Position numbers and translations under genes: made by a program. A stretch of 30,070 nucleotides of DNA from a virus. This document shows positions 8,998-30,070 of the stretch, piece after piece. Positions within the stretch are counted from its first letter, which is position 1. The number at the start of each line of letters is the position of its first letter. The stretch is taken from positions 1 through 30,070 of the IMG/VR virus record IMGVR_UViG_3300025073_000133; one strand, written 5' to 3'. Under the pieces are notes generated by a model. That model saw nothing but the letters and a program-made list of their open reading frames with translations, had not been told where the DNA came from and did not search any database.

Positions 8998-9333
8998 ATG
9001 ACGAGCGGCGTCGAGATCACGCTGGACCGGGTGCGGAGGATCAAGTTCACGTTCGCGGACCTGAAGGCGATGGAGGGGCGGCTCGGGAAGCCGATGGGCG
9101 AGATCGTGGGCGACCTCACGCGGCTCTCGGTCAACACCCTCCAGCACGCGCTCTACGCGGGGCTGCGGTCGGACGACAAGCGGCTGCGGTTCGAGGACGT
9201 CGAGCGGCTGCTGACCGAGTACGTGGACAGCGGGCGGGGGGCGCTCAACGACGTCCTGTACCTGCTCAACGAGGCCTTCACGGAGTCGGGGTACTTCGGG
9301 CGGGGGGCGGGGGACAAGGCGGCCGCCGAGTAG
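8998..9333 (+). CDS. Tail assembly chaperone, gpG-like
   Basis: A 111-residue protein; ATG at 8998 follows GGGGAGG. The opening strand EITLDRVRRIKFTFADLKAMEGRLG fits the small first chaperone of siphovirus tails, as does the following helical region (LRFEDVERLLTEYVDS and DVLYLLNEAF). It is acidic at the C-terminus and located just before the tape measure gene, where these chaperones bind. The G-rich 3' end (CGGGGGGCGGGGG at 9301-9313) lies just before the stop. A -1 shift there would be free of stops and join the next frame, as in many phages that make a G-GT fusion. The DUF family relation is inferred from pattern and place. Confidence 0.65.
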   Translation: MTSGVEITLDRVRRIKFTFADLKAMEGRLGKPMGEIVGDLTRLSVNTLQHALYAGLRSDDKRLRFEDVERLLTEYVDSGRGALNDVLYLLNEAFTESGYFGRGAGDKAAAE

Positions 9334-9335
9334 AG

Positions 9336-9629
9336 ATGGCGGTCGGGTACGAGGAGGCCGAGGCGCTGGCGTACGAGCAGCTCGGCCTCGAGCCTCGCCA
9401 GCTCTCGCGCCTCACGCCCGCCGAGCTGGTGGCGATGGCGGTCGGGCGCCAGCGCCGGGACGAGCGCGAGATGTGGCGCCTCGCCTGGCTGGTGGCGCGC
9501 GTGACGGCCGCGACCGGGATGCTGAAGCAGGCGCCGCGGGTCTCGGACCTGATGCAGGAGCTGGTGGGCGAGGACCGCATGGCGCAGATCCTCTCCGAGG
9601 AGATGCGCCGGCACAGGAGAGAGGGCTAG
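9336..9629 (+). CDS. Tail assembly chaperone, second component
   Basis: A 97-residue protein starting two bases after the gpG-like stop. It is mainly helical: EEAEALAYEQLGLEP, then LSRLTPAELVAMAVGRQRRDEREMW, then RLAWLVARVTAATGML, ending in a charged tail (EEMRRHRREG). In this slot tailed phages usually encode the T domain of the tail assembly chaperone pair, or an equivalent. The pattern 'LTP.El..m......r.......laWl.A....A' fits that group. The upstream ribosome binding site is weak, so coupling or a -1 frameshift from the previous gene may be used. See the separate finding on the frameshift geometry. Confidence 0.6.
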   Translation: MAVGYEEAEALAYEQLGLEPRQLSRLTPAELVAMAVGRQRRDEREMWRLAWLVARVTAATGMLKQAPRVSDLMQELVGEDRMAQILSEEMRRHRREG

Positions 9630-9633
9630 GCGC

Positions 9634-12600
9634 GTGGCGGGCGAGGTCAACGTCGGGGAACTGGTCGCGAAGCTCCGCCTCGACATGGCGGAGTGGAAGC
9701 GGGGGTTCGACGAGGCGGCGCGCGGCCAGCAGCAGTTCGGCCGGGACTTCGAGCGGCAGTCGCAGAAGGTCTCCCTCGCGTTCGGCGGCCTGGTCAAGGG
9801 GGCGCTCGCGTTCTCGGCCGCGATGGTCGGGTTCCGGGGCGTCACCGGGACGCTGGCGGCCGCCAAGAACGCCGTCATCGGGATGAACTCGACGCTTGAG
9901 ACCGCCCAGCTCCAATTCAAGGCCCTGCTCAAGTCCGGGGACGCCGCCAAGGAGCACGTCCGGTCGCTGTTCGACTTCGCGGCCAAGACGCCGTTCGAGA
10001 CGGGCCCGATCCTCCAGGCCTCGCGCCTGCTCCTCACGTTCGGGGTCAGCGCCCAGAAGGCGCGCGAGTCCCTGACGCTGGTGGGGGACGCGGCCGCGGT
10101 CTCGGGGCGCGGCATCCAGGACGTCGCGTTCTGGTTCGGGCGCGCCTACAGCATGATCCAGGGCGGGCGCCCATTCGGCGAGGCCGCGATGCGGCTCCAG
10201 GAGATGGGGATCCTGTCGGCCGAGGGCCGGACCAAGATCGAGAAGCTCCAGGAGGCGGGCGCCAGCGCGAAGGAGACGTTCGCGGCTCTCGAGTCCGAGT
10301 TCCGCCGGTTCGGGGGCTCGATGGTCGAGATGGCCGGCACCTGGACCGGCCTGACGAGCACGATCTCGGACAACGTCCAGCTCGCGCTCGCCGAGGGGTT
10401 CCGCCCGCTCTTCGACGCCCTCAAGGCCCTCGCGAAGGAGGTCGCGGACTTCGTCCAGACCGAGGGGTTCACGCAGTGGGTGCGGAACACCGCGGAGCTG
10501 ATGGCGGGCGCCGTCACGGGGACGCGCGACCTCGCCGCCGGGGTGGCGGACCTGTACCGCGAGCTGGACGCCCAGGCGCGGCGGCACGAGGATGGCCCGT
10601 TCAGCAAGTGGCTGACGAGGTTCCTGAACTTCGTTGGCCGGAACATCAGCGCCGTGCCGTTCCGGTTCGCCGAGACCGCGGCGGAGGAGCGGCAGCGCGC
10701 CGACCTCGAGGCCGCGCTGGCGCGCGAGCCCACGATGGGGCCGCCCGTCGTGCTACCGGCCGCGATGCCGGCCGCGAAGGAGGAGCCGCTGCCCGTGTGG
10801 GGCGGCAGGGAGTTCACCGGGGTGCTCTCGACCGCGGAGGTCCTGCGGGACCGCGCCGCGGCGCTCGAGGCGTTCGCCCGGGCGGGCGACGAGGCGGCCG
10901 AGTCGCTCTCCGAGGTCGAGGCCGCGGCCGACGACCTCTCCCAGGCGCTGTCCGACTGGCCGGCGTTCTTCGCCGGGCTCTCGGACGGGATGGAGGAGGT
11001 CGACAGCGACCTCCGGCGGATCTCCGCGGACCAGATCGTGCTCACGGAGAAGAGCGCCGGGGCCGAGGAGGCGATCAAAGCCGCGCAGGTCGAGCTCCGG
11101 GCCGGGATGGCGGAGACCGCGCAGGCGGCGGACGAGATGCGCTCAGCCTGGACGCTGTTCGGGCGGTCGCTCGACGAGCTGGGCCCGAAGGAGCGCGAGC
11201 AGGTCCAGCGCCTCGCGGCGATCCGCGAGGAGGCGCGACGGTTCGGCGAGATCCGGGGCTTCTACCTCGACGTCTTCGGGGCGGTCGGCGGCGCGTTCGA
11301 GAAGCTGGCGACCGGCATCATCCAGGGGACCCAGACCGTGAAGGCGGCGTTCGCGAACCTGGGGCAGTACATCATCGTGGAGTTCGCCCAGCGCGTGATC
11401 CGCCAGGCGCTGGCGCCGCTGATCAATTCCCTGGCGACGCTCGCGGCGGGCCTCACGATGCAGTTCCTCGGGGGCGGCGGAGGGGCGGGGGGCGGGTTCC
11501 TCGGGGGCGCCGCGCAGGCCGCGGGCTCGGCCCTCGTGAGCGGCGGAGTCGGGGCCGGCGCGAACGCGGCCGGGGGGTTCGGCGGGGTCGGGACGTTCCA
11601 GGCCGGGCTCGGGTTCGCGAACGCCTTCCCCGGGATCTACAATCTCCCGAGCAACTACGCGCTCGGCGGCCTGAGCGGCGCCGCGTTCGGGCTCCCGGCG
11701 AGCGTGTCGTTCGGGACCGGGGCACTCGAGCTCGGCGCCGGGGTCGGGGCGATCGGCGGGGCCGCGACGGCGCCGACATCCGGGCTCCTCGGAAGCGCGG
11801 GGATGATCTCGTCCTTCGCGCCCTACCTCGCGGCGGCCGGCATCGCGCTGAACCTCGGGTCCGCGATCTTCGGCGGCGACCCGACCGGGCCCGCGGCGAT
11901 CGGGACGTACGCCGGGACGGGCATCGGCGCCGGGATCGGCGCCGGGATCGGCTTCGCGATCGGCAACGTCCCGGGCGCGATCATCGGGGCCCTCCTGGGC
12001 GGGGCACTCGGGGGTTCGGGCGGGGGCTTCCTCGGTGGGATGTTCGGTGGCAAGAAGAAGACGCGGGCGCAGCGGAACGCAGAGAGCCGCGCGCAGCAGG
12101 TCCAGCTCTTCAACGAGTTCGGCGGGGCCCTGGGCGGGGTCCAGAGCCTCCGCGATCTCTACGACGCGATCGCGGCGTTCCAGCCCGGCGCGATGGGCGG
12201 GGGGCGGAACCCGGTCGCCAGCACGTTCTTCTCGCCGGAGGACTTCGGGGCCGTCGGGCAGGCGATCGGGCCCCCGGTCGCGCCGCCGGGCTTCCAGTTC
12301 CCGTTCGCCTTCACGCCGGCGACTGCGCCCCGGCCGACCGACCTGTACCCCGGCGCCAGCGGCGTCTACATCGGCAAGGGCCCGAACTCGCTCGAGGCCA
12401 CCCTGACGTACGAGCAGTTCGCCAGCGCGGTGCGGCAGGACCCCGACCTGATCAAGAAGGTCCGCACCCTCCTCTGGGCCGGCCCAACGCAGGACACCGG
12501 GATGAACCAGGGAATCTCGGACCAGATCGCGGCGCTCGTCGAGGCGCTGGTGGAGCTCGACGCGCAGCAGATCACCGCGGCGCGCTCGGCGCTCGAGCAG

Positions 12601-19230: not shown

Positions 19231-20570
19231 GGCACGGGGTCGCGCTCGACGCCGGCGGGTGGGTGACGGCCGTGGTCTCGTCGGAGGTCGACGCCCCGCC
19301 CGGCGAGGTGCGGGTCACGGCGGCGGACGCCGAGCTGCTCCAGGGGCCGGACGTCCTGCCGGTCGCGCGGTGGACCGACCGGGGGCTCGCGCTCCCGCAC
19401 GACGACCGGGTCCTGTGGCGCGTCCTCCGGTCGCGCGGCTACAACGGGTACGAGGCCGTCGTCGAGGCCCGGGCGCACCGGCACCTCAAGGCGCGGTGGG
19501 CGGACAGCGGGGCCGCGACCCCGCCGCCCTCGACCGTGACGAGGTTCGACCCGCCCGACACGCCGGAGCACGAGTACCCGGATGTCCCGGGCCTGCGGCT
19601 GCGGCGCCTGACGGCCGACGACCTGGACGCCAGCGCGGCGGTCGGGGTGGAAGCGGGTATTTTCCCGGCCCGGTGCCCTGGCGACCCGCCGTGCTGCGAC
19701 CCGCCGGAGGCGCACGCGTGGTGCCAGCTCGCGGGCCGCGTCGACCAGCCCTCGACGTGGCAGCTCGCGCTCGAGTTCCGGGGCCGGCCGCTCCAGCACG
19801 AGCTCGTGTACCTGGACGACCGGCGCCCGACCGTGACGTGGACGATCCACTTCAACCGCGAGCGCCCCGCCTGGTTCTGGCGCGAGGCCGAGCGCCCGGT
19901 CTGGGGGGCGCTCCGCGCGATGGGGCACGGCGCGCTCCTGTCCCGCACGCGCGCCAACCGCCCGGACTGGATCGCGGGCCTCCGGGCCAACTACGGGGCC
20001 CGCGAGGTGGGGGCGTACCGCGCCGCGACGCTGCTGGAGTTCCCGCTCGACGACGCGGTGTTCCGCGGGTGGCCGGCGCGCCGGGCGGTGGGGGCGACGT
20101 TCGAGCGCGGCGGCTACGCGACCCGCGAGGCCCAGGAGGGCGAGGTCCCGGCGCTCGTCGAGCACGTCCGGGGGCGCTGGCGCGACGCCCCGGACCAGGC
20201 GCTGTACGCCCAGCGGTGCGAGGACCAGTACCACCTCGACCGCGCCACCCTGCTGGTGACCGAGCGCCCGGGCCGCGCCGGGAAGCCGGACGTCCGGGCG
20301 GTCAGGTTCCGGGCCGACCGCGGGGGCCGGCACCTCGGGAACATCGCGCTCCTGACCCCGATGCGCCAGGAGCCGATGGCGGACTCGCTTCATGCCACGA
20401 AGGCCTGGATGCTGGCGGCCGGGTACAGCGACGCCAGCATCTTCATGCCGACCGAGTACTGGGAGTCGCCCGTCATGCAGGAGCACGCGCGGGGCGCCGG
20501 CTGGGGGCTCAAGGTCCGGCACACGAAGTTCCGGCGCCCACTCGTGGAGCTGGAGATGCCGCTTGTCTGA
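19227..20570 (+). CDS. Two-domain protein with acyltransferase-like features, function unknown
   Basis: A 447-residue protein from GTG, overlapping the hub gene by four bases. I do not recognise it as a whole. Residues about 1-125 hold short strands and a Pro-rich linker. Residues about 205-280 (HFNRERPAWFWREAE, then ALRAMGHGALLSRTRA, then WIAGLRANYGAREVG) and the last part (SLHATKAWMLAAGYSDASIF, then MQEHARGAGW) resemble halves of GNAT-type folds, where a helix plus a G-[FW]-x pattern ends the acyl-CoA domain. No full acetyl-CoA loop can be pointed to. The next two genes belong with it in a coupled set, one of them more clearly GNAT-like. It may act on virion or host proteins. Confidence 0.45.
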   Translation: MRHGVALDAGGWVTAVVSSEVDAPPGEVRVTAADAELLQGPDVLPVARWTDRGLALPHDDRVLWRVLRSRGYNGYEAVVEARAHRHLKARWADSGAATPPPSTVTRFDPPDTPEHEYPDVPGLRLRRLTADDLDASAAVGVEAGIFPARCPGDPPCCDPPEAHAWCQLAGRVDQPSTWQLALEFRGRPLQHELVYLDDRRPTVTWTIHFNRERPAWFWREAERPVWGALRAMGHGALLSRTRANRPDWIAGLRANYGAREVGAYRAATLLEFPLDDAVFRGWPARRAVGATFERGGYATREAQEGEVPALVEHVRGRWRDAPDQALYAQRCEDQYHLDRATLLVTERPGRAGKPDVRAVRFRADRGGRHLGNIALLTPMRQEPMADSLHATKAWMLAAGYSDASIFMPTEYWESPVMQEHARGAGWGLKVRHTKFRRPLVELEMPLV

Positions 20571-20709
20571 CGCGTGCGCGATGGTCGAGCGGTGCGCGCG
20601 CCACCAGCTCTGGGAGACCCTGCGCCGAGACCCGGAGCCGCCGCAGGGCGGCGCGCCCGAGGAGCAGCTCGCCGACTATACGGTGCCATACCCGCAGGAC
20701 GCGGGATGA
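20563..20709 (+). CDS. 48-residue linker protein between acyltransferase-like genes
   Basis: A short protein read from TTG at 20563, overlapping the upstream gene by eight bases; an in-frame ATG is at 20581. The sequence is charged and polar (CARHQLWETLRRDPEPPQGG, then EEQLADYTVPYPQD). Its stop overlaps the next ATG (ATGA), which argues for real translation. It has two Cys and one His but no clear metal motif. Function unknown. Confidence 0.45.
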   Translation: MSDACAMVERCARHQLWETLRRDPEPPQGGAPEEQLADYTVPYPQDAG

Positions 20710-21164
20710 TATGGTTTCGGGAGGTCACGAGGCCGTGCGCCGAGGCGCTGTGGGGCCGCGCGATGGCGTCCCTGCCGGACCCCCAGGCGGCGTTCGGCCC
20801 GCGCTGGCGCGAGCGCCCGCGTCCCGGCGAGCGGACGTGGGCAGTGGTCGACGACCGCAGCAAGCTGCTGGGCGTCGGGTCCCTCGAGTCGGCGGGGTCG
20901 AACGCTGTGTCCTACTGCGTCTGCCTGCTGCCGGAGGCGCGGGGCTGCGGCGCCAGGCTGCGGGTGCGGGAGTACCTGGTGGACGAGGCGTTCCGCGACC
21001 CCGCGGTCCAGGAGGTGCGGGCCGCCATCCTGCTGTCCAACACCCGGCACCTCGACCAGCGGGTCCGGGAGCTGGCGGCCGGCCCGTGGGCCTGGGGCGG
21101 GATCTCGGGCGACCCTCCCGAGGCCGCGTTCACGGTCTCGCGCGCCGCCTGGGAGGCGCGGTGA
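20706..21164 (+). CDS. GNAT-like acetyltransferase candidate
   Basis: A 152-residue protein from ATG overlapping the upstream stop. It shows a GNAT-like order: N-terminal helices (FREVTRPCAEALWGRAM), a strand TWAVVDDRSKLLGVGSLES (the beta2-beta3 hairpin, 'G...l'), then SYCVCLLPEARGCGARLRVREYLVDEAF. In that last segment 'LLPEARGCGARLRV' sits where the acetyl-CoA pyrophosphate loop ('R-G-x-G-x-[GA]') is expected, followed by the helix. VRAAILLSNTRHLDQRVREL fits the later strand-helix with an 'N-x-x' motif. Such proteins in phages may modify host or phage proteins, or antibiotics. The G-C-G-A loop is a plausible but imperfect match. Family membership is likely; the substrate is unknown. Confidence 0.6.
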   Translation: MIWFREVTRPCAEALWGRAMASLPDPQAAFGPRWRERPRPGERTWAVVDDRSKLLGVGSLESAGSNAVSYCVCLLPEARGCGARLRVREYLVDEAFRDPAVQEVRAAILLSNTRHLDQRVRELAAGPWAWGGISGDPPEAAFTVSRAAWEAR

Positions 21165-21168
21165 CCCC

Positions 21169-21378
21169 TCAGCGGCGCTCGACACGCGCCAGCGGCCCGG
21201 GCTCGGGGGCGCCGCCCGGCAGGCACGCGCCGGGGCGGGGCGAGCGCTCGAGCGCCGCGAGGCACGCCTCCTGGTCCAGGAGCGCGACGCCCGCCCAGCC
21301 GGGTGTCATCGGGACGGGCCCGATGGCCCACGGGGTCGAGTACAGGAGCCAGAGCACGAAGAGCGCCGTCGGCGTCAT
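21169..21378 (-). CDS. Lone reverse-strand small exported protein
   Basis: A 69-residue protein, the only gene on the - strand in the window. Support: its ATG (21378) is preceded by AGGAGG at eight bases, a stronger ribosome site than most genes here have. The N-terminus (TALFVLWLLYSTPWAIG) is a clear hydrophobic signal or anchor. The remaining sequence follows the pattern of small exported phage proteins with a 'W-x-x-V...C-L-A-A...C-L-P' layout (WAGVALL, EACLAALE, GACLPGG), where two Cys may pair. It fills the space between the GNAT-like gene and the endolysin and is convergent with the former. It could be an envelope or exclusion factor, or a lysis accessory. Confidence 0.65.
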   Translation of the reverse strand: MTPTALFVLWLLYSTPWAIGPVPMTPGWAGVALLDQEACLAALERSPRPGACLPGGAPEPGPLARVERR

Positions 21379-21417
21379 GATGCGGTCCTCCTATAGGGTA
21401 TATCGCGGGGGCGCGGC
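21379..21417. promoter_or_regulatory. Divergent gap with AT-rich patch
   Basis: Forty bases separate the starts of the reverse-strand gene and the endolysin. It holds CCTCCT (the reverse gene's ribosome site) and TATAGGGTATAT (21392-21403), a rare AT-rich patch here, followed by GCGGGGGC before the endolysin ATG. On the + strand the AT patch could be a -10 box for the lysis gene with a very short leader; no -35 is obvious. On the - strand it lies too close to the ribosome site to be that gene's -10. Confidence 0.3.
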
Positions 21418-21915
21418 ATGAGTGTGGAGTGGGGGCGCGTCAGGCACTTCCGGCGCGAGGAGTGGGTGCACGACCCGGACCTCGTGGAGCCGGACGTCGT
21501 GTACCTGCTGGACGAGCAGCGGGCCGCGCATGGCGTGGCGCTGCCGGGCGTCCGGTACGTGATCCACGTCGCGTGGGACCGGCCCGGCAGCCACGACGCT
21601 GGGGACTCGAGCCACTACACGACCGCGCGCCCGCTCGCGACGGCGGTGGACTACCACGCCGAGGTCGTGCGCCAGGCTGGGGGCCGCCGCGTCGTGGAGC
21701 CCGTGCCGCTGGTCGACCTGTGGCTGTGGGCCGAGAGGTTCCCGTGGAACGGGGTCGGGCTCTACCCCAGGTGGAACACCCCGGGCCTTCACTGCGACCT
21801 CCGGCGCCTGGGGCGCGACCACCCGAACCTCGGGAAACGGTGGTGGCGGGACGGGAAGGCGTACAAGTCGTTTGACGAGGCAATGTTGAGACGGCTCCTC
21901 GGAGAGAAAGCATGA
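21418..21915 (+). CDS. Endolysin, M15-type peptidase (D-Ala-D-Ala carboxypeptidase-like)
   Basis: A 165-residue protein. It contains the zinc-binding residues of the peptidase M15 group: SSHYTTARPLATAVDYH with His66 and Asp78 (the 'S-x-H-x-x-G/R-x-A-x-D' motif), and a later His125 in the TPGLHCDLRR segment (the 'W-x-H-x-[DE]'-like motif). The opening HFRREEW fits the start of the family, and FPWNGVGLYPRWNTPGLH is typical of single-domain phage M15 endolysins. It would cut peptidoglycan cross-links or stem peptides late in infection. No signal peptide or cell-wall-binding domain is present, so it probably depends on a holin, most likely a membrane protein elsewhere in the genome. Confidence 0.85.
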   Translation: MSVEWGRVRHFRREEWVHDPDLVEPDVVYLLDEQRAAHGVALPGVRYVIHVAWDRPGSHDAGDSSHYTTARPLATAVDYHAEVVRQAGGRRVVEPVPLVDLWLWAERFPWNGVGLYPRWNTPGLHCDLRRLGRDHPNLGKRWWRDGKAYKSFDEAMLRRLLGEKA

Positions 21916-21993
21916 GCGGCGGCGAGAACGGGACGGAGCGGCTGGGGAGCTGCGGGCGGTGAGCCATCCGCCCGAGGCGCGATAAGGGAGGGC

Positions 21994-22407
21994 GTGGGAC
22001 TGTACGACCTGATGGCCGCCGAGGCGGCGGGCCGGAGACTGAGGCCCTGCCTCCTGAGGGACTTCTACCGGGCGCTCTCGCGCGATGACCGCGCCGACTT
22101 CCGGCGGGCGCTCGCCGACCCGGCGATCAGCCAAGAGGCGTTCTTGAGCGTCCTGCAAGCGCGCGGGTACGCCGGAACGAGTCCGACCACCGTCCACAAG
22201 CACCGCCGTCGAGAGTGCCCAACGTGCCGAGCGGACAATGCAAAGGGGATCTATGAAGACCACGATGCAGGACGCCGCGAAGCACGAAACGGCGATCCGA
22301 AAGCTCCAGGCGGACAACGCGAAGCTCTTACGCCAGCTCGACGAGGCCAAGTTGACGTCCCGCGATCTCGTCGACGCCGTGTACCGAGCCGCGCGGGAGG
22401 CCGCTGA
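21994..22407 (+). CDS. HTH-like phage protein, tail overlaps next gene
   Basis: A 137-residue frame from GTG with AAGGGAGG before it. The first 75 residues are a helical domain ending in the pattern SPTTVHKHRRRECPTC: 'LSRDDRADFRRALADPAIS', then 'FLSVLQARGYAGTSPTTV', where helices 2-3 look like a helix-turn-helix with a basic end and a terminal Cys pair. This small domain is common in phages of GC-rich hosts. After CPTC the frame continues in a different frame from the phosphoesterase gene for about 155 bases; codon use there favours the phosphoesterase frame, so the last ~50 residues are probably not conserved. A DNA-binding or regulatory role is inferred. Confidence 0.55.
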   Translation: MGLYDLMAAEAAGRRLRPCLLRDFYRALSRDDRADFRRALADPAISQEAFLSVLQARGYAGTSPTTVHKHRRRECPTCRADNAKGIYEDHDAGRREARNGDPKAPGGQREALTPARRGQVDVPRSRRRRVPSRAGGR

Positions 22408-23302
22408 CCAGGTCACGTACCGGCCGGTCGCCGCCCCGCGGGCGGAGCGCAGAAAGGATGACCCCGAGACCGCCATCCTACTGGTCTCGGACTGGCAGCT
22501 CGGGAAGCGGACCCCCACCTACAGCACCGAGGTCTGTGCCAAGCGCATCGCGCTGTACGCCGACCGCGTCCGGCGCCTCGTCGGCATCCAGCGGGCGGAC
22601 CGTCCAATCCGGAAGGCGGTCGTGTGCCTGCTCGGCGACCTCGTCGAGGGAGAGACCATCTTCCCGGGCCAGGCGTGGCGCGTCGACGCCTCGCTCTTCC
22701 GCCAAGTCCTGCTCGACGGTCCCGAGATCTTGGGGACTCTCCTGCGCGACCTCCTCAACTACTTTGAGGAGGTCGAGGTCCACGACGTTGTCGGGAACCA
22801 CGGGCGGATCGGGCGCCGTGGGGACTACCACCCCGAGACGAACGCCGACGCCATGCTCTATCACGCCACGCACCAGCAGCTCAGGGGCGAGGCACGCCTC
22901 CGGTGGTTGCCGAATTATCAACCCGGGGAGCGGGCCTGGTACCGCGTCTTCAGCGTGGGGCGGAACGCGTTCTTCTGCTTCCACGGCGACCAAATGCGGG
23001 GCGGGGGGTTCGCCGGCATCCCGATGTACGGCTTCATCCGGGCCATCATGTCGTGGGCCTCGGGCACGCTCCCGCAGCAGTTCCGGTACGGGCTCTGCGG
23101 TCACTGGCACTCGATGTGGTCGATCCCGGTCAACCAGACGCACGAGGGCCTTGCCCGCATCCTGTGGGTCAACGGGTCGACCGAGTCCGGCAACACCTGG
23201 CTCCAGGAAGAGATCAAGGCCCAGAACCCGCCCGGCCAGTGGCTCATGTTCGCACACGATCGCCGGGGGGTAACGGTCGAGCACCGAGTGTGGCTGGCGT
23301 AG
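22253..23302 (+). CDS. Calcineurin-like metallophosphoesterase
   Basis: A 349-residue protein. The ATG at 22253 follows AAAGGGG. An N-terminal helix or coiled coil (residues 1-55) precedes the phosphoesterase domain. Metal-binding motifs are LLVSDWQLG (D80, with Gln where His is usual in 'D-x-H'), LLGDLVEG (G128-D129), GNHGR (181-185), HGDQ (244-247) and GHWH (283-286). These are the five blocks of the calcineurin-like fold, giving a two-metal site. Targets in phages are usually nucleic acid or nucleotides. The Gln82 variant at the first metal is seen in some phage members but may alter metal use. It sits before the methyltransferase and may work in DNA metabolism; overlap with the HTH gene suggests coupled translation. 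Confidence 0.85.
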   Translation: MKTTMQDAAKHETAIRKLQADNAKLLRQLDEAKLTSRDLVDAVYRAAREAADQVTYRPVAAPRAERRKDDPETAILLVSDWQLGKRTPTYSTEVCAKRIALYADRVRRLVGIQRADRPIRKAVVCLLGDLVEGETIFPGQAWRVDASLFRQVLLDGPEILGTLLRDLLNYFEEVEVHDVVGNHGRIGRRGDYHPETNADAMLYHATHQQLRGEARLRWLPNYQPGERAWYRVFSVGRNAFFCFHGDQMRGGGFAGIPMYGFIRAIMSWASGTLPQQFRYGLCGHWHSMWSIPVNQTHEGLARILWVNGSTESGNTWLQEEIKAQNPPGQWLMFAHDRRGVTVEHRVWLA

Positions 23303-23336
23303 AGAGGGGTCCAGGCTGACTACCTGCGGGCAACGT

Positions 23337-23354
23337 CCCCGGCGCCGGCCGGGG
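23337..23354 (+). terminator. Candidate terminator-like hairpin before the methyltransferase
   Basis: CCCCGGC and GCCGGGG form a perfect seven-base-pair stem around the loop GCCG, 34 bases after the phosphoesterase stop. It is followed by AGCCCCTCCCTTCC without a T run, so an intrinsic terminator is uncertain. A TACGAT box lies at 23377-23382, between this stem and the methyltransferase ATG, and could be the -10 of a local promoter, but no -35 is seen. Confidence 0.35.
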
Positions 23355-23401
23355 AGCCCCTCCCTTCCGCCAGCGGTACGATATTACGCGACGGGGGACA
23401 G

Positions 23402-24388
23402 ATGAATGCGCTCTCGCTCTGCTCCGGGGTCGAAGGAATTGGATATGGACTCAAGCGGGTCGTGCCCGGCTACCGGACGGTCTGCTACGTCGAGGCGGAC
23501 CCGTACTGCCAGGACGTGCTCATTCGGCGCATGGAGGACGGATGGTTGGATTGTGCCCCGATCTGGCCCGACCTCCGGACCTTCGACGGACGCCCGTGGC
23601 GCGGCCGAATCGATCTTGTCCACGCTGGGTTTCCCTGTCAGCCCTTCTCCGTCGCGGGCAAGCGACGGGGGGCCGACGACGCCCGCAACCTCTGGCCTGA
23701 CGTGCGCCGGATCGTCGCTGAGTCCGATCCAAGAGTTGTGTTTCTCGAAAACGTTCCCGGTGCCTTGCCGTATTTCTTCCATGTCGTCCTGCCCGAGTTA
23801 CACGGCCTGGGCTACGTCACTGCGTGCCGACTCGTTACGGCGGCTGAAGTCGGCGCGCCGCACCGGAGGCAGCGAGTCTTCGTGCTGGCCCACCGCGAAC
23901 GTCCCGAATGGCGGGCGGAAGCCGAGGGGCGGAATGCCTCGGGCGGGCATGACACCGGACGGAAAGAAACGACAAGTTGGGCTTCACAATGTCGCGGAAC
24001 AGTTGTGGGCGAGCCCGAGCGCGCACGACGGAAGGCGCCCGGGGTCAGACGCGACGAGCATACAGGGAACAAACCTGAAACGGGACGCGGAGTTGTGGTC
24101 CACCCTGACGAGCCGCGACTGGCGGTCGGATTCCAGCCAGAAGTCGGATGCGGAGATTTACGGGACGAAGGGCCGCCCGCTTGGCCGCCAAGCCCCGAGG
24201 AGCGGGATCGGTGGGCCGCCGTCCTCGCCCGTTGGCCCGACCTCGCCCCCGCGACTGAGGCTCAACTCCCGCTTCGTCGAGTGGCTGATGGGCGTGCCCG
24301 TCGGGTGGACCGACTTCGCGCCCTTGGCAACGCCGTCGTGCCCGCCCAAGCCGCTAGAGCGTGGGAACTCCTAACTCGGTGTCAATGA
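23402..24388 (+). CDS. DNA cytosine-C5 methyltransferase with two overlapping C-terminal reading frames
   Basis: As read here the protein is 328 residues. N-terminal motifs are clear: ALSLCSGVEGIGYGLK (motif I, SAM binding), AGFPCQPFSVAGKRRG (motif IV, catalytic PCQ 78-80), LENVPG (motif VI, ENV 116-118), and VGAPHRRQRVFVLA (motif VIII). Near residue 163 (about base 23886) a second frame opens onto WPTANVPNGGR, then RKRQV-like and WASPSAHD / WSTLTSRDW blocks, ending FVEWLMGVPVGWTD; it stops at 24374. That frame has the high GC-third-position bias of real genes and looks like the target region of phage methylases. The first frame stays open too, and ends with motif X (RLRALGNAVVPAQAARAW). So the true product may need a +1 shift, or the gene is frameshifted. 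It would protect phage DNA from restriction. Confidence 0.75.
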   Translation: MNALSLCSGVEGIGYGLKRVVPGYRTVCYVEADPYCQDVLIRRMEDGWLDCAPIWPDLRTFDGRPWRGRIDLVHAGFPCQPFSVAGKRRGADDARNLWPDVRRIVAESDPRVVFLENVPGALPYFFHVVLPELHGLGYVTACRLVTAAEVGAPHRRQRVFVLAHRERPEWRAEAEGRNASGGHDTGRKETTSWASQCRGTVVGEPERARRKAPGVRRDEHTGNKPETGRGVVVHPDEPRLAVGFQPEVGCGDLRDEGPPAWPPSPEERDRWAAVLARWPDLAPATEAQLPLRRVADGRARRVDRLRALGNAVVPAQAARAWELLTRCQ

Positions 24389-25863
24389 GCGCTATCGCCG
24401 TCGTCCGCGTGCGGGGCCCGTGGGCCCGACTCGAGGGACCGCCAGAGGCCCGGGCCGCGGCGCGCGAGGCCTTGACCGCCGAAGTGCCGGGCGCGCGCCA
24501 CACGCGCGCCTACCAGAACGGCCGCTGGGACGGTACCAGATGTCTCGTCTCTGCGTCCGGCGCGTTCCCGTCCGGGCTCGCCGAGCGCGTGGCGGCGATC
24601 GTGGACGCGCGGATCCAGGTCGACGACGACCCCACGGCGCCGATGCCTTTCGCTGACCGGCTCGCGGGCGTCGAGCTGCGACCCTACCAGGTCACGGCCG
24701 CCGACGCGGCGGTCGAGAGGCGCCGGGTCTTGATCGAGTGCCCGACCGGGTCCGGGAAGACCGAGATCGGGGCCGAGGTGATCCGACGCGTCGGGGCCCC
24801 GGCCCTCTGGCTCACGCACCGGGCGGACCTCGCGCGCCAGACCGCCGAGCGCCTCCGCGCGCGGCTCGGGGTCGAGATTGGGCGTGTGGGGGCCGGGGCG
24901 GCCGACTGGCGGGCCGTGACGGTCGGGATGGTCCCGACCCTCGCCCGCCGCCTCGAGTCGCGCCACGCGGGCACGCTGGCCCGCCTGGGGGCCGTCAGGG
25001 TGCTGGTGCTCGATGAATGCCATCACGGAGCCGCCGACACGTGGAGACTCGTCGCCCAGGCCTGCGGGTCGGCCGCCTACAGGATCGGGCTCTCGGGCAC
25101 CGCCCCGCGGCGCGACCCGCTGACCGACCTCCTGCTCGAGGGCGTGTGCGGCCCGACTGTCGTGGCGGCCGAGACTGGCGTGCTCGAGGCCGCCGGGTTC
25201 CTGGCGCGCCCGACCGTGCGGCTGCTGGAGCCACCGCCCGCCAGCTACCCGTCCTACGAGGAGGTGCGGGAGGCCGTCCTGCCGGACTGGCGCCGCGACC
25301 CGAAGCGCCTCGCGCGCCTCGGGACCCGCCTCTTTGACGAGGCCCGACGGCGGGGGATCGTCGGGAACCGCGACCGGACCGAGGCCTTCGCCGCAGCGGC
25401 CGCGCGGCACGCGCTGGCGGGGGAGCGGGTCCTCGTGCTGTGCGAGCTCCGGCCCCACGCCGCGGCCCTCGAGGCGGCGGTCCGCCGGCGCGGGGTCGAG
25501 CGGACGTGGTGCCTGACGGGGGAGGATCGGGACCGGGAGGCGGCGCTCGGGCGCTACCGCTTACTCGCTGGGGGCGGCGTGCTGGTCGCGACGCCGTGGT
25601 TCCGCGAGGGGATGGACGTCCCGGAGATCGACGCTGGGCTTCTGGCGGGGGGCTCACTGAGCGAGATCGCGGTCCTCCAGGGGTTCGGCCGGATGCTGCG
25701 GCCGCGATCAGATAAGGCGGAGGTGCTGGTCTACGACGCCCTGGACGGCCGGGACCCAGGCGCCCGGAAGGACTACCTGGCCCAGCACGCGCTCGCGCGC
25801 CTGCGGGTCTACCGTGAGCGCGGCTGGGTGATCGAGCGGCAGCCCGCCGGGGGGTGGAGATGA
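24385..25863 (+). CDS. SF2 helicase (DEXH type)
   Basis: A 492-residue protein, ATG at 24385 overlapping the methyltransferase stop (ATGA); an in-frame GTG 24 bases upstream is possible. Domains: an N-terminal ~90-residue segment with NGRWDGTRCLV (a small fold seen before phage UvsW-like helicases), then motifs RPYQ (99-102), Walker A PTGSGKT (120-126), LDECHH (DECH 210-213), LSGTAPR (237-), and a second RecA domain with VLVATPWFREGMDVPE and QGFGRMLRP (motif VI, Arg436/439). These fit superfamily 2 helicases used in phage replication restart, branch migration or strand exchange. It opens the replication module, coupled to the initiator gene downstream (ATGA at 25860). Confidence 0.9.
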   Translation: MSAIAVVRVRGPWARLEGPPEARAAAREALTAEVPGARHTRAYQNGRWDGTRCLVSASGAFPSGLAERVAAIVDARIQVDDDPTAPMPFADRLAGVELRPYQVTAADAAVERRRVLIECPTGSGKTEIGAEVIRRVGAPALWLTHRADLARQTAERLRARLGVEIGRVGAGAADWRAVTVGMVPTLARRLESRHAGTLARLGAVRVLVLDECHHGAADTWRLVAQACGSAAYRIGLSGTAPRRDPLTDLLLEGVCGPTVVAAETGVLEAAGFLARPTVRLLEPPPASYPSYEEVREAVLPDWRRDPKRLARLGTRLFDEARRRGIVGNRDRTEAFAAAAARHALAGERVLVLCELRPHAAALEAAVRRRGVERTWCLTGEDRDREAALGRYRLLAGGGVLVATPWFREGMDVPEIDAGLLAGGSLSEIAVLQGFGRMLRPRSDKAEVLVYDALDGRDPGARKDYLAQHALARLRVYRERGWVIERQPAGGWR

Positions 25864-26846
25864 GGATTCCGAAGATTGAGGTTGGGCGAGATGTCCTTCA
25901 TCAGTATCGTGCGGCCGATCGGGCGGGCCGGCAAGCCATCCTGAACCGCGTCGCGGAGGCGAGTGGGGCGCACCGGAAGTCGGTGATCCGGGCGGTCAAC
26001 GACCTCGTGCGGGTCAACCTCGCGCTGGCCGAGAAGATCTCCCTCCGGCTCCAGGAGGTACGAAATGACCCGGCGCTTCCACCCTTCGTGGCGGCCATCC
26101 TCGACGAGGTTGAGTCGATGTGCGACGAGGCCTTCGCGGTGGAGAACATCGCCTCAAGAACCCACCCGCATCAGCGTCAAAATGGAGGCCAAAATGGACG
26201 GGGTTCGGTAACGAAGTCCGGCAATGGTAGCATGCGGGTAGCATCTAAGGAGCCCAATGATAGCGCCTGGGTAACGAAGTCACGTAAGTTGCAGCGCGCA
26301 AAGAAAAAAAGAGATGCTACCGAGACGTTACTTTCCTATACTAGTAGTAAGGAGTATAAAGTGATTAAGGATTCTAGTATTACTCCCCCAAAAAATCTGC
26401 CGGTAACCTTCGGCGGGAAGCCTGCGCCGCCTTCGGCGGCGCCTCGCGCTAGCGCGCGAGACACACTCGACGTCGTCCAGCTTCTCTCGGCCGTCGAGGG
26501 GATCCTCCACACCCAGTGCGGGCCAGAGACGTCGTACGGGGTCCGCGCCGCCGGCCTCGCCAGACTCCGGCTCTCGGAGGGCGCGGCGCTGGCGGACCTC
26601 CTGCGGGTCTGCCAGATCGGGATCGCCAGGTGGCGGCGGGAGAAGTTCCCCCCGCTCCGGAGCCTGTCGTACCTGTGGGGCTCCACGATGCGGGCGATCC
26701 TCGACGGGGGCGACGGCTCGGGGCCGGGTGGCGCCCGAGGCCAGGCCCCGGTCTTCCGCGAGGGCGAAGAGGCCGAGGCGTGGGCCCGGGGCTGCGAGGA
26801 GATGCCCACCGCGACCCGAGCCATCTTGCTGGGGCCGGATAGGTAG
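25860..26846 (+). CDS. Replication initiator, lambda O-like, containing an internal origin-like region
   Basis: A 328-residue protein; ATG at 25860 overlaps the helicase stop. Residues 1-60 form a helical HTH-like domain (EVGRDVLHQYRAADRAGR, then EASGAHRKSVIRAVNDLVR). Residues about 98-190 are a polar linker (HPHQRQNGGQNGRG, then low-complexity K/S/T) encoded by AT-rich DNA unlike the rest of the window. Residues about 200-285 (TLDVVQLLSAVEGILHTQCG and LARLRLSEGAALADLLRVC, then SLSYLWGSTM) form a second helical domain, the kind that binds a helicase loader. An N-terminal DNA-binding domain, a disordered middle coded by the origin and a C-terminal loader-binding domain is the lambda O layout. 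The gene for a DnaC-like loader follows at once. Function is inferred from this arrangement. Confidence 0.65.
   Translation: MRIPKIEVGRDVLHQYRAADRAGRQAILNRVAEASGAHRKSVIRAVNDLVRVNLALAEKISLRLQEVRNDPALPPFVAAILDEVESMCDEAFAVENIASRTHPHQRQNGGQNGRGSVTKSGNGSMRVASKEPNDSAWVTKSRKLQRAKKKRDATETLLSYTSSKEYKVIKDSSITPPKNLPVTFGGKPAPPSAAPRASARDTLDVVQLLSAVEGILHTQCGPETSYGVRAAGLARLRLSEGAALADLLRVCQIGIARWRREKFPPLRSLSYLWGSTMRAILDGGDGSGPGGARGQAPVFREGEEAEAWARGCEEMPTATRAILLGPDR
26207..26400. other. Putative replication origin inside the initiator gene
   Basis: Within the initiator's linker coding region: two identical GGTAACGAAGTC boxes (26207-26218, 26270-26281; 63 bases apart), two GGTAGCAT boxes (26226-26233, 26237-26244), the exact inverse GATGCTACC (26313-26321), and an inverse CGTTAC (26326-26331). 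Downstream lies an AT-rich stretch; 26281-26400 is about 39% G+C by hand count in a window near 70%, with AAAGAAAAAAAG and several TAGTA/TATA-type steps. Repeats beside an AT-rich unwinding segment inside an O-like gene match the lambda origin layout. No experimental evidence; this is inference from pattern. Confidence 0.55.
26424..26460. repeat. Two adjacent hairpins beside the putative origin
   Basis: GCGCCGCC-TTC-GGCGGCGC (26424-26442, perfect eight-base-pair stem) is followed directly by CTCGCGC-TAGC-GCGCGAG (26443-26460, perfect seven-base-pair stem). They lie just after the AT-rich segment. CCTTCGGCGG also occurs as a direct repeat (26408 and 26430 regions). They could be primosome-assembly or single-strand hairpin sites, or chance in GC-rich coding DNA. 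Confidence 0.45.
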
Positions 26847-26849
26847 CTA

Positions 26850-27572
26850 GTGGACGACCTCCTCCCGCCCGAGCTCGACGACCTCGAGCCCGAGGACGAC
26901 GCTGCGGCGCGGGTCCGGGCCTGCGGGGTCCCGTACCCGGAGTGGGGGTGGGGCAGTCTCCGGGAGTGGCGCGCCGAGGGGGTGTCGCCCGCCGACCTCC
27001 GGGATTGGGGGCGGGCCCCAGCGCCTGGGCGCTGGGGGCTCCTGCTTCACGGGGCGCCTGGGCTCGGGAAGACGGTCGCGGCCTGCTGCATGATCCGGGA
27101 CGCCGCCGAGCGCCGGGTCGGGTCCGCGGGGGCCTGGGTCATGGTGACGGCCCCCCGCACCCAGGAGGCGGTCGTGGCCGGGGCGTTTCGGCAGCGCCCG
27201 GCCCCGGCTCAGTTCTATCGGTGGCAGGGCCTCAAGGCGCGGCTCGACGCCGCCAAGACCGGGGCGTTGCCGTGGGGCGAGGAGCCGCCCCTGACGGCCG
27301 ACAAGCTGCTGGGCGAGATCGAGGGGCGGTGCGTGGTCCTGGCGCTCGACGACGTCGATGTCGACGCCCACACGCCCTGGAAAGAGGAGGTTCTCTTGCG
27401 CTTGCTTGAGATCCCGCTCCGGGGTCGGCGGTTGATTCTGACGACGAATCTCCTCCAAGACCGGATGCAGGCGCGGGACCGGCTCGGGGAGCGGGTGGTG
27501 GATCGCCTGATGGACCCATCGGTTTTCGCTCGCGTCCAGTTCTCGGGCGAGAGCCTCCGAAGGCGCCGGTAG
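26850..27572 (+). CDS. DnaC-like helicase loader, AAA+ ATPase
   Basis: A 240-residue protein from GTG, three bases after the initiator stop. It has Walker A (HGAPGLGKT, residues 67-75), Walker B (VLALDDVD, about 163-170), sensor I (ILTTN, 196-200) and a C-terminal helical lid with an ARLG-like arginine region (DRLGERVVDRLMD). The acidic N-terminal 20 residues (MDDLLPPELDDLEPEDD) could bind a partner. This matches helicase loaders of the DnaC/IstB-type AAA+ group, which place the replicative helicase on DNA. Gene order O-like initiator, loader, DnaB-like helicase supports this. It lacks the zinc-type N-terminal domain of lambda P and is instead closer to phage DnaC homologues. Confidence 0.85.
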   Translation: MDDLLPPELDDLEPEDDAAARVRACGVPYPEWGWGSLREWRAEGVSPADLRDWGRAPAPGRWGLLLHGAPGLGKTVAACCMIRDAAERRVGSAGAWVMVTAPRTQEAVVAGAFRQRPAPAQFYRWQGLKARLDAAKTGALPWGEEPPLTADKLLGEIEGRCVVLALDDVDVDAHTPWKEEVLLRLLEIPLRGRRLILTTNLLQDRMQARDRLGERVVDRLMDPSVFARVQFSGESLRRRR

Positions 27573-27578
27573 GCGTTC

Positions 27579-28934
27579 GTGAGCGACCCGCCCGCCTACG
27601 GGCAGAGCTTCGGCCCCGGGTTCCTGCGCAAGGTCCTGTCCCTGTGCATCAAGACCGGGCTCCACCGCCGGGTGCCGGGTGCCTGCGACCCGGACCACTT
27701 CGCCGAGGGGTCGGAGGGGCGTCTCGTGGGCCCGCGCCAGCGCCTGGCGCGCCTGGTCGAGCGGCACGGCGAGGCGGACCCCCGCGGGTGGCCGGGCCTC
27801 GAGTCGATGGACCACCTCGTGGAGGCAGAGGTCCGGCGCCTTCGGACCGACGAGGCGGTGGCCCTGCGCGAGGAGTGGGGCGCCGTCCGGGAGGCGGAGG
27901 TCCCGGACGCCGCGTATGTCGAGGGCGAGGTCCTGGAGTGGATCGGGCGCTCTCGGCTCCAGCGCGCGCTGCTCGGCGCGGCGGACCTCTACCAGCGGGG
28001 CGAGTCGGCGGCCGAGATCCGGAAGTACGTCACCCGCGCGATACGGGAGTCCGAGCCCGCGTCTTCCGGCCGCTCCGTGCCGCTGATCGCGACCTACGAG
28101 GAGCGGGTCGCGCTCTGGGAGCGGGGCGAGGACCTCGCGGGGCGTGTGCCGACCGGCTTCCCGAAGCTCGACCTCGCGCTCGGCTCCGGGGTCCGGCCCG
28201 GTGAGGTGATGTACTTCCTGGCGCCCCCGAAGGGGGCGAAGACGAGCGCGCTCCTGAACGTCGCACTCAACGCCGCGCGTCGGCGCCACGGGGTGGCGTT
28301 CTTCTCGTTCGAGATGGGCGCGATGCCGATGCTCATGCGAATGGACCGGAACGTGGCGCGCGCCACCAAGCAGGAATTGCGGGCCGACACCTCGGGGATG
28401 GCGCGCGCCTACCGGGGCCTGATCGCGGCGGGCGCCGGCGAGGTCCACCTCTGGACCGGCTCCCCGCGGGAGGCGGGGGTCGTGGACGCCGTGCAGCGGC
28501 ATGTGGAGGACCTGCGGCGCGAGGGCGAGCGCGTCGACCTCGTGGTGCTCGACTTCCTCAACATCATGGGGTCGGGGTCCGGCGAGCGCGAGCTCCGGCA
28601 CGAGCTCGCGGCCATCAGCCGGGAGATCGCGGCCGCCGCTCGTGCGCTCGGGGCGGCGGTCTGGTCGGCCGCGCTCGTGAAGCGCAGCGCGATCGCCAAG
28701 GCCAGGATCCGGAAGGACGATATCGCGGAGGCGTTCGAGGTCATCGCGGTGGGGGACGGGTTCGTCGGGATCTGCGCGTCCGAGGAGCTGGTGCAGGCCG
28801 GGATGCGGTCCCTCTACGTCGCGGCCCTGCGGGACGAGGCGGACGAGCAGTTCGCCGGGACCTACCGCGTGGACCTCGACCGGATGGCGTTCCGGAGCGT
28901 GAAGGACGAGGAGGTGCCGCATGGTGCTGCGTGA
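27579..28934 (+). CDS. DnaB-like replicative helicase (RecA-fold ATPase)
   Basis: A 451-residue protein from GTG. The N-terminal ~190 residues are helical and hold a LHRRVPGACDPDHF segment typical of phage DnaB-like proteins. The ATPase core begins RVPTGFPKLDLALGSGVRPGEVMYFLAPPKGAKT (residues 215-222 are the P-loop, APPKGAKT, where Gly before Lys is replaced by Ala). It continues with VAFFSFEMG (motif 1a with Glu and Met) and VDLVVLDFLNIM (Walker B), then a His/Glu-rich region and AVWSAALVKRS. It would unwind DNA at the fork after loading. Position next to the loader supports this. The altered P-loop occurs in some DnaB-like ATPases; activity should still be possible. Confidence 0.8.
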   Translation: MSDPPAYGQSFGPGFLRKVLSLCIKTGLHRRVPGACDPDHFAEGSEGRLVGPRQRLARLVERHGEADPRGWPGLESMDHLVEAEVRRLRTDEAVALREEWGAVREAEVPDAAYVEGEVLEWIGRSRLQRALLGAADLYQRGESAAEIRKYVTRAIRESEPASSGRSVPLIATYEERVALWERGEDLAGRVPTGFPKLDLALGSGVRPGEVMYFLAPPKGAKTSALLNVALNAARRRHGVAFFSFEMGAMPMLMRMDRNVARATKQELRADTSGMARAYRGLIAAGAGEVHLWTGSPREAGVVDAVQRHVEDLRREGERVDLVVLDFLNIMGSGSGERELRHELAAISREIAAAARALGAAVWSAALVKRSAIAKARIRKDDIAEAFEVIAVGDGFVGICASEELVQAGMRSLYVAALRDEADEQFAGTYRVDLDRMAFRSVKDEEVPHGAA

Positions 28935-29548: not shown

Positions 29549-29763
29549 GCTTCCGGCCCCACGAGGTGGACGACATGCTGGCGGCGCTCTGGGGCCCGTT
29601 CCGCCGGGCCCTCACGCTCTGGGAGAGCGACTTCGTGGCGTCCGTCCAAGCGCAGTGGAGCCGCAGCCGCTCACTCTCGTCACGCCAGGAGCGGAAGCTC
29701 GCGGAGGTCTGGGAGGGGTTCGCGAGCGGCCGCCGGCGCGCGGGGGATGAGCCGGAGGAGTAG
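29545..29763 (+). CDS. Small helical phage protein, replication region
   Basis: A 72-residue protein from GTG, overlapping the upstream stop (GTGA). It has two helices with the pattern ALTLWESDFVASVQAQW and RSLSSRQERKLAEVWEGF, the 'W-E-x-x-F-[VI]-x-S-[IV]-x-x-Q...[LS]-S-x-[KR]-Q-x-x-x-L' motif found in small phage and primase-associated proteins. This motif often sits beside replication genes. It may bind the primase or helicase. Function is not established. Confidence 0.6.
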   Translation: MSFRPHEVDDMLAALWGPFRRALTLWESDFVASVQAQWSRSRSLSSRQERKLAEVWEGFASGRRRAGDEPEE

Positions 29764-29767
29764 AGGT

Positions 29768-30070
29768 TTGGGGTCGCCGGACGCCGAGATTATCGACCTC
29801 GATACTTATCTCGCGGAGCACGCCGCGGTCCGGAACGCGGGGGGCGGGCGCGGGTACGACGAGGGGGTCCGGATCGTGGACTGCCCCTTCTGCGGCGAGC
29901 GCCGTGGGCGTGGGTGGCTCCAGGTCGAGGGGTTTGCGGCCGGGTGCTGGAACGCGGGCTGTGAGGCGGAGCCGCGCCTCGCGGGTGGCGCCGTCGAGTG
30001 GGTGCGGCGCCTCGAGGGCCTTCGGTCACGAGGCGAGGCGTGGGTCTTCCTGTTGCGCCACTACCCGCGC
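29768..30070 (+). CDS. DNA primase, zinc-binding N-terminal part (3' end outside window)
   Basis: The visible 101 residues are the start of a primase. The TTG at 29768 has GGAGGAG seven bases upstream; an in-frame ATG at 29747 is an alternative but would overlap the previous gene by 17 bases with no ribosome site. The zinc ribbon of the CHC2/phage primase type is clear: CPFCGE (Cys39, Cys42) and CWNAGC (Cys60, Cys65), with a WLQVEG strand between them. This domain recognises the template and guides primer synthesis. The catalytic TOPRIM-type domain, if present, lies beyond the window. Being next to the helicase and loader supports the call. Confidence 0.75.
   Translation, partial: MGSPDAEIIDLDTYLAEHAAVRNAGGGRGYDEGVRIVDCPFCGERRGRGWLQVEGFAAGCWNAGCEAEPRLAGGAVEWVRRLEGLRSRGEAWVFLLRHYPR

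Follow-up and report, generated by a model that had tools for sequence, protein, structure and literature searches.

A probable origin of replication within the initiator gene of a very GC-rich uncultivated phage

Where does a very GC-rich, uncultivated phage begin to replicate its DNA? The question is raised by a partial viral contig, 30070 bases long (the whole record, hereafter the window), in which the mean composition is 72% G+C, all genes lie on one strand, the head genes are cut off at the left end and the primase gene is cut off at the right end. The original prediction placed here a self-contained origin-initiator unit within a gene for a lambda O-like initiator. Such a unit proved to be the best explanation of the locus, as the origins that we used as yardsticks look alike, whereas the assignment of the initiator to the lambda O family is not supported; what remains of that label is an analogy in architecture. 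We consider it very probable that a phage replication origin is nested in the linker-coding part of its own initiator gene.

The candidate initiator gene lies on the plus strand at positions 25860–26846, starts with ATG at 25860 (alternatively with GTG at 25854) and encodes 328–330 amino acids that appear to be an orphan by sequence. Its start codon and the stop codon of the preceding helicase gene share an ATGA overlap. Along the frame, G+C at third codon positions (GC3) drops in the middle alone and is high towards either end, which argues for one continuous gene with an unusual middle portion. The genes following on the same strand were predicted to be those for a loader, a helicase and a primase, and family matches bear out all three: a DnaC-like helicase loader (26850–27572; phrog_3277, E = 9.5e-12; phrog_50, E = 1.4e-11), a DnaB-like replicative helicase (27579–28934; phrog_19, E = 4.3e-39; DnaB_C, E = 6.9e-17, 62.1 bits against a cut-off of 27) and the beginning of a DNA primase gene (29774–30070, with an approximate start and truncated by the end of the window). 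The full-length primase gene is found in a twin contig described below (L002, 10401–11432), and this copy matched phrog_47 (E = 1.5e-19). Upstream of the initiator gene are genes for a superfamily 2 helicase, a C5 methyltransferase and an exonuclease, and then the tail and head genes.

The middle of the initiator gene carries all of the repeats, boxes and inverted copies of the original prediction at the positions given there. The 12-base repeat GGTAACGAAGTC occurs as two exact copies, box A1 (26207–26218, plus strand) and box A2 (26270–26281, plus strand), the only perfect ones in the window. The spacing of the two copies, 63 bases, would correspond to six helical turns. Between them, the two GGTAGCAT boxes begin at 26226 and 26237, the first being box B1 (26226–26233, plus strand) and the second extending to box B2, GGTAGCATCT (26237–26246, plus strand). 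On the minus strand, box B3 (26312–26321) repeats GGTAGCATCT and is complementary to B2 at 10 of 10 bases, so that the two form an inverted pair; it includes the predicted inverted copy GATGCTACC (26313–26321). The other predicted inverted copy, CGTTAC (26326–26331), belongs to a partial box A3, GTAACGTC, on the minus strand (26324–26331). From left to right, the order is A1, B1, B2, A2, an A-rich tract, B3, A3, the AT-rich stretch and a GGTAAC (26402–26407, plus strand), an uncertain member of the set at the far edge of that stretch.

This clustering exceeds what composition or coding would produce. Positions 26151–26420 contain 13 identical 8-mer pairs, direct and inverted, compared with 1.1 expected from dinucleotide shuffles, 2.0 from synonymous codon permutation and 2.0 from codon resampling, and 13 pairs were reached in none of 2000 runs under any of the three null models. 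When the dinucleotide test was slid along the record in 333 windows, those ranking first to third by z-score all covered the origin region. Without this correction, repeats are more numerous in GC-rich coding stretches at 9.0–9.6 and 11.4–12.0 kb. These two stretches (9046–9630 and 11386–12000, the latter inside the tape measure gene) are rich in short repeats that are significant by shuffling, and probably reflect repetition at the protein level. The hexamer GGTARC is present in six copies as against 0.14 expected from the protein and the phage codon usage, albeit the motif was picked post hoc and its multiplicity is marginal when all one-degenerate hexamers are considered (p = 0.016–0.16). 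A simple protein-level repeat can be dismissed for the origin region, since B1 stands in a codon frame different from that of B2, and B3 and A3 are inverted; the repetition therefore lies at the DNA level. Judged from the arrangement of these copies, selection at the boxes acts on the DNA and not on the protein.

Next to the boxes is the AT-rich stretch, a candidate DNA unwinding element (26282–26400) with the A-rich tract GCAAAGAAAAAAAGAG on the plus strand (26300–26314). It had been described as about 120 bases of about 39% G+C, and we measured 38.3% in 26280–26399. The suggestion that local stability be profiled across the record was rewarded, as positions 26299–26398 are both the least stable and the lowest-GC 100-mer in the 30 kb (34% G+C, against 52% in the runner-up that does not overlap it). 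The origin region is unremarkable in DNA hairpin folding (z = −1.7), and the search for tRNAs and Rfam RNAs found none of relevance. GC3 in 26280–26399 is 0.375, while 0.921 is expected from the amino acids and the phage codon usage (z = −12.8); across 90 control windows taken from the other phage genes, the most extreme value was z = −7.5, in the methyltransferase gene. The amino acid sequence thus does not explain the AT-richness, and the signal at the DNA level is independent of the codons.

Low GC3 could also mark foreign DNA. If this is the case, the AT-rich linker was recently acquired or exchanged, still retains the composition of its donor and joins two domains, and the repeats are incidental. 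The phage probably does contain acquired DNA, as GC3 of the C5 methyltransferase gene (23402–24388) is markedly below that of the other phage genes (z down to −7.5), which suggests that this gene was acquired recently, and the N-terminal half of the initiator gene is mildly lower in GC3 than the C-terminal half (z = −3.8). Nevertheless, the initiator gene shows an abrupt dip (~250 bp) that sits precisely between its two domains, at the place of the top composition-corrected repeat excess of the record, and a donor composition would not give rise to repeat copies that are inverted or out of frame. We regard a foreign origin of the linker as quite unlikely.

The same elements might instead serve regulation, with the boxes as operators for the initiator or another phage regulator, the AT-rich stretch exposing an internal ribosome-binding site for a short C-terminal protein, or both. 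Autoregulation of initiators through iterons is well known in plasmids, and lends this idea some appeal. An in-frame AAGGAG-N6-GTG at about 26350–26363 could yield a separate C-terminal fragment of the initiator of ~160 amino acids, albeit AAGGAG stems from the commonest codons for K and E. No sigma-70-like promoter was detected in 25000–28000, and a regulatory role leaves unexplained why the anatomy resembles that of known nested origins. A regulatory region is, in our judgement, very unlikely.

It is also conceivable that replication initiates elsewhere, depending on the host DnaA or on transcription, and that the nested region is no origin or a secondary one, as in SPP1 with its oriL and oriR. 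The record is incomplete, and other origins could lie outside it. GC skew, proposed as a check of the original prediction, did not lend support: the cumulative curve makes no turn at 26.2–26.4 kb, though all genes of the record lie on one strand. On the other hand, the window contains no DnaA box TTATCCACA within one mismatch and no second AT-rich repeat cluster. Initiation elsewhere appears highly improbable to us, and we return to the nested origin as the preferred reading.

What kind of protein would act at this origin? None of the Pfam, NCBIfam and PHROG families matched the initiator above threshold, and tblastn against phages and plasmids gave no significant match. The N-terminal domain (25860–26150, plus strand) is presumed to bind DNA: its single-sequence model is entirely helical with moderate confidence (pLDDT 77), and a helix-turn-helix-like stretch resembles HTH_36 at E = 0.044, which is under the cut-off. 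The fold search with this model, which bears on whether the domain is a winged helix as in the lambda O family, returned no match. Our structural reading is confined to the N-terminal model, because the model of the full-length initiator was too poor for use. The absence of a significant homologue, together with a DNA-binding domain presumed from a sub-threshold motif and a single-sequence model, weighs against the preferred reading. BLASTP against lambda O found no match at E = 10, and with no PHROG match either, membership in the lambda O family is not supported.

The C-terminal domain (26421–26843, plus strand) bears a faint resemblance to PF09524 (Phg_2220_C) at residues ~235–261. The search with PF09524 gave no match to the initiator at E ≤ 10 (the 80alpha initiator scores 112 bits), which places it outside the family by the curated cut-off. 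A purpose-built PF09524-type profile gave the C-terminal fragment 5.8 bits, a score above the maximum of 3.1 from 2000 shuffles, and ranked the full-length initiator only fifth among 650 decoy frames. As both the domain boundary and the family were picked by eye, the tie to PF09524 is a lead only; the C-terminus may possibly be linked, weakly, to this initiator domain of SPP1 and 80alpha. Alternatively, the protein may represent an unrelated initiator family with an all-helical, non-winged DNA-binding domain, for which a nested origin evolved independently, with two partly inverted boxes (GGTAACGAAGTC and GGTAGCATCT) and no tandem iterons. We hold this to be a tentative possibility, rather doubtful at present. 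The sequence of the initiator and the set of boxes are new, and the design of a nested origin is already known.

Relatives could in principle reveal whether the boxes are conserved. Viral contigs were scanned with the initiator, its C-terminal part, the loader, DnaB, the upstream helicase, the primase, the exonuclease and the iteron pair as queries. The sole relative carrying the replication module was IMGVR_UViG_3300025121_000565, identical from 19854 to 27841; being identical across the region, this twin is uninformative on box conservation. Contigs related through the upstream helicase or the exonuclease (L006–L011 and L015–L087) carried neither this initiator nor this loader, and neither the scans of genome contigs nor the tblastn search of phages and plasmids found a relative. 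The twin also has ~490 extra bases (L002, 9921–10410, between window positions 29761 and 29778), which complete a frame of 250 amino acids matching phrog_24928, a family of unknown function (E = 9.4e-31). The flanks there have also diverged further (95.6%) than the remaining sequence, pointing to insertion, loss or recombination there. Among these relatives, the helicase gene of L008 (5938–8310) has an in-frame, intein-like insert (ECLDGDTQ...VVHNCHH) directly in a helicase motif, and L007 (20–874) is a near-identical helicase gene without it, so that the two form a natural pair for intein presence and absence.

In the mechanism that we propose by analogy with known systems, the initiator would bind the GGTARC-type boxes A1-B1-B2-A2, as well as the inverted B3 and A3. 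The bound protein may bend the DNA, or wrap it, and melt the neighbouring AT-rich stretch (26282–26400), whereupon the C-terminal domain of the initiator would recruit the DnaC-like loader encoded just downstream. The loader would deliver the phage's own DnaB-like helicase to the strands thus opened, to be followed by the phage primase and a host polymerase, and the region would thereby be active as an origin.

This work gives an uncultivated, very GC-rich phage without cultured relatives a candidate origin and initiator that can be put to the test. It also lends weight to the idea that an origin situated in the linker of the initiator gene is a general solution, found across initiators that share no detectable sequence. 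The signal is unusually clean owing to the GC-rich background. A composition-corrected repeat excess and a codon-corrected GC3 dip beside a loader gene, taken together, recover several known or likely nested origins, and could be used to scan phage genomes.

The likeness to such origins was gauged by running the same repeat statistic over other phage loci, with the SPP1-like Bacillus phage 049ML003 standing in for SPP1. The statistic peaks at lambda ori (z = 10.2), at the annotated rep_origin of 80alpha (z = 13.4) and inside the initiator genes of 049ML003 (z = 18.3), Tetrasphaera phage TJE1 (z = 21.7) and Streptococcus phage Javan272 (z = 17.1). Signals were weaker in YeP3 and a Vibrio phage, AQ113 had no clear peak, and the peak of TP-84 fell outside the initiator gene. 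As known origins peak in the same test, the window behaves like known nested origins, and it has the features of this class: a repeat cluster above chance, an AT-rich element of low stability, and loader and helicase genes downstream. The very strong clusters within the initiator genes of 049ML003 (L096, 1351–1710) and Javan272 (L101, 1171–1620) are likely nested origins themselves, left unmarked in the retrieved annotations.

The repeats of the present region are fewer and less regular than those of lambda or TJE1: its boxes are short, with cores of 6–12 bp, fall into two sub-types and do not share one orientation, while the iterons of lambda and TJE1 are near-perfect tandem copies, which counts against the preferred reading. 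TJE1 gp60 resembles our case in having an AT-rich repeat cluster in the initiator gene, at a locus of 58% G+C, but differs in its three long tandem CCTCCGGATnAAAAGTCGGA iterons and its PF09524-type initiator. These iterons (L093, 2762–2861) are nested in the gene and followed by a low-GC stretch with a local GC3 dip, and likely constitute an origin that is also unmarked in the retrieved annotation. In 80alpha, the annotated origin likewise lies inside the initiator gene (gp20), with a DnaC-like loader following, and its position in ORF20 was deduced from the failure of trans complementation to rescue the ORF20 mutant (PMC5499656). Unlike our phage, 80alpha has no helicase of its own, and the C-terminal domain of its initiator is a clear PF09524.

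Our data support the view that the region works like lambda ori and SPP1 oriL, and do not support an identity of the initiator as lambda O. Lambdoid origins lie in the middle of gene O, where iterons are bound by O and an AT-rich tract is needed for unwinding (PMC7466680). Our locus shares with lambda the succession of iteron-like repeats and an AT-rich tract in the linker-coding part, with the loader gene next (L088; PMC7466680), and lambda has a similar A-rich tract in its AT-rich region (CAAAAGAAAAAAGAAAAG). In contrast, neither O nor P of lambda is homologous to this initiator or loader, respectively, and lambda uses the host DnaB and has four tandem 18-bp iterons; such iterons are absent here, the boxes being unlike them and mixed in orientation, just as had been predicted of the repeats. 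The closest parallel in gene order is SPP1, whose oriL lies within gene 38 and depends for initiation on gp38 together with the gp39 loader and the gp40 helicase (PMC6316719). The two phages differ in that their initiators have no detectable homology, that of our phage not reaching PF09524, in that the loader here is a DnaC-like AAA+ protein, and in that the boxes here are shorter and of mixed orientation. What they share are direct repeats and an AT-rich unwinding element in the initiator gene (PMC6316719), and the order of initiator, loader and DnaB, which matches SPP1 genes 38-39-40 more exactly than it matches lambda (PMC6316719; 049ML003, L096).
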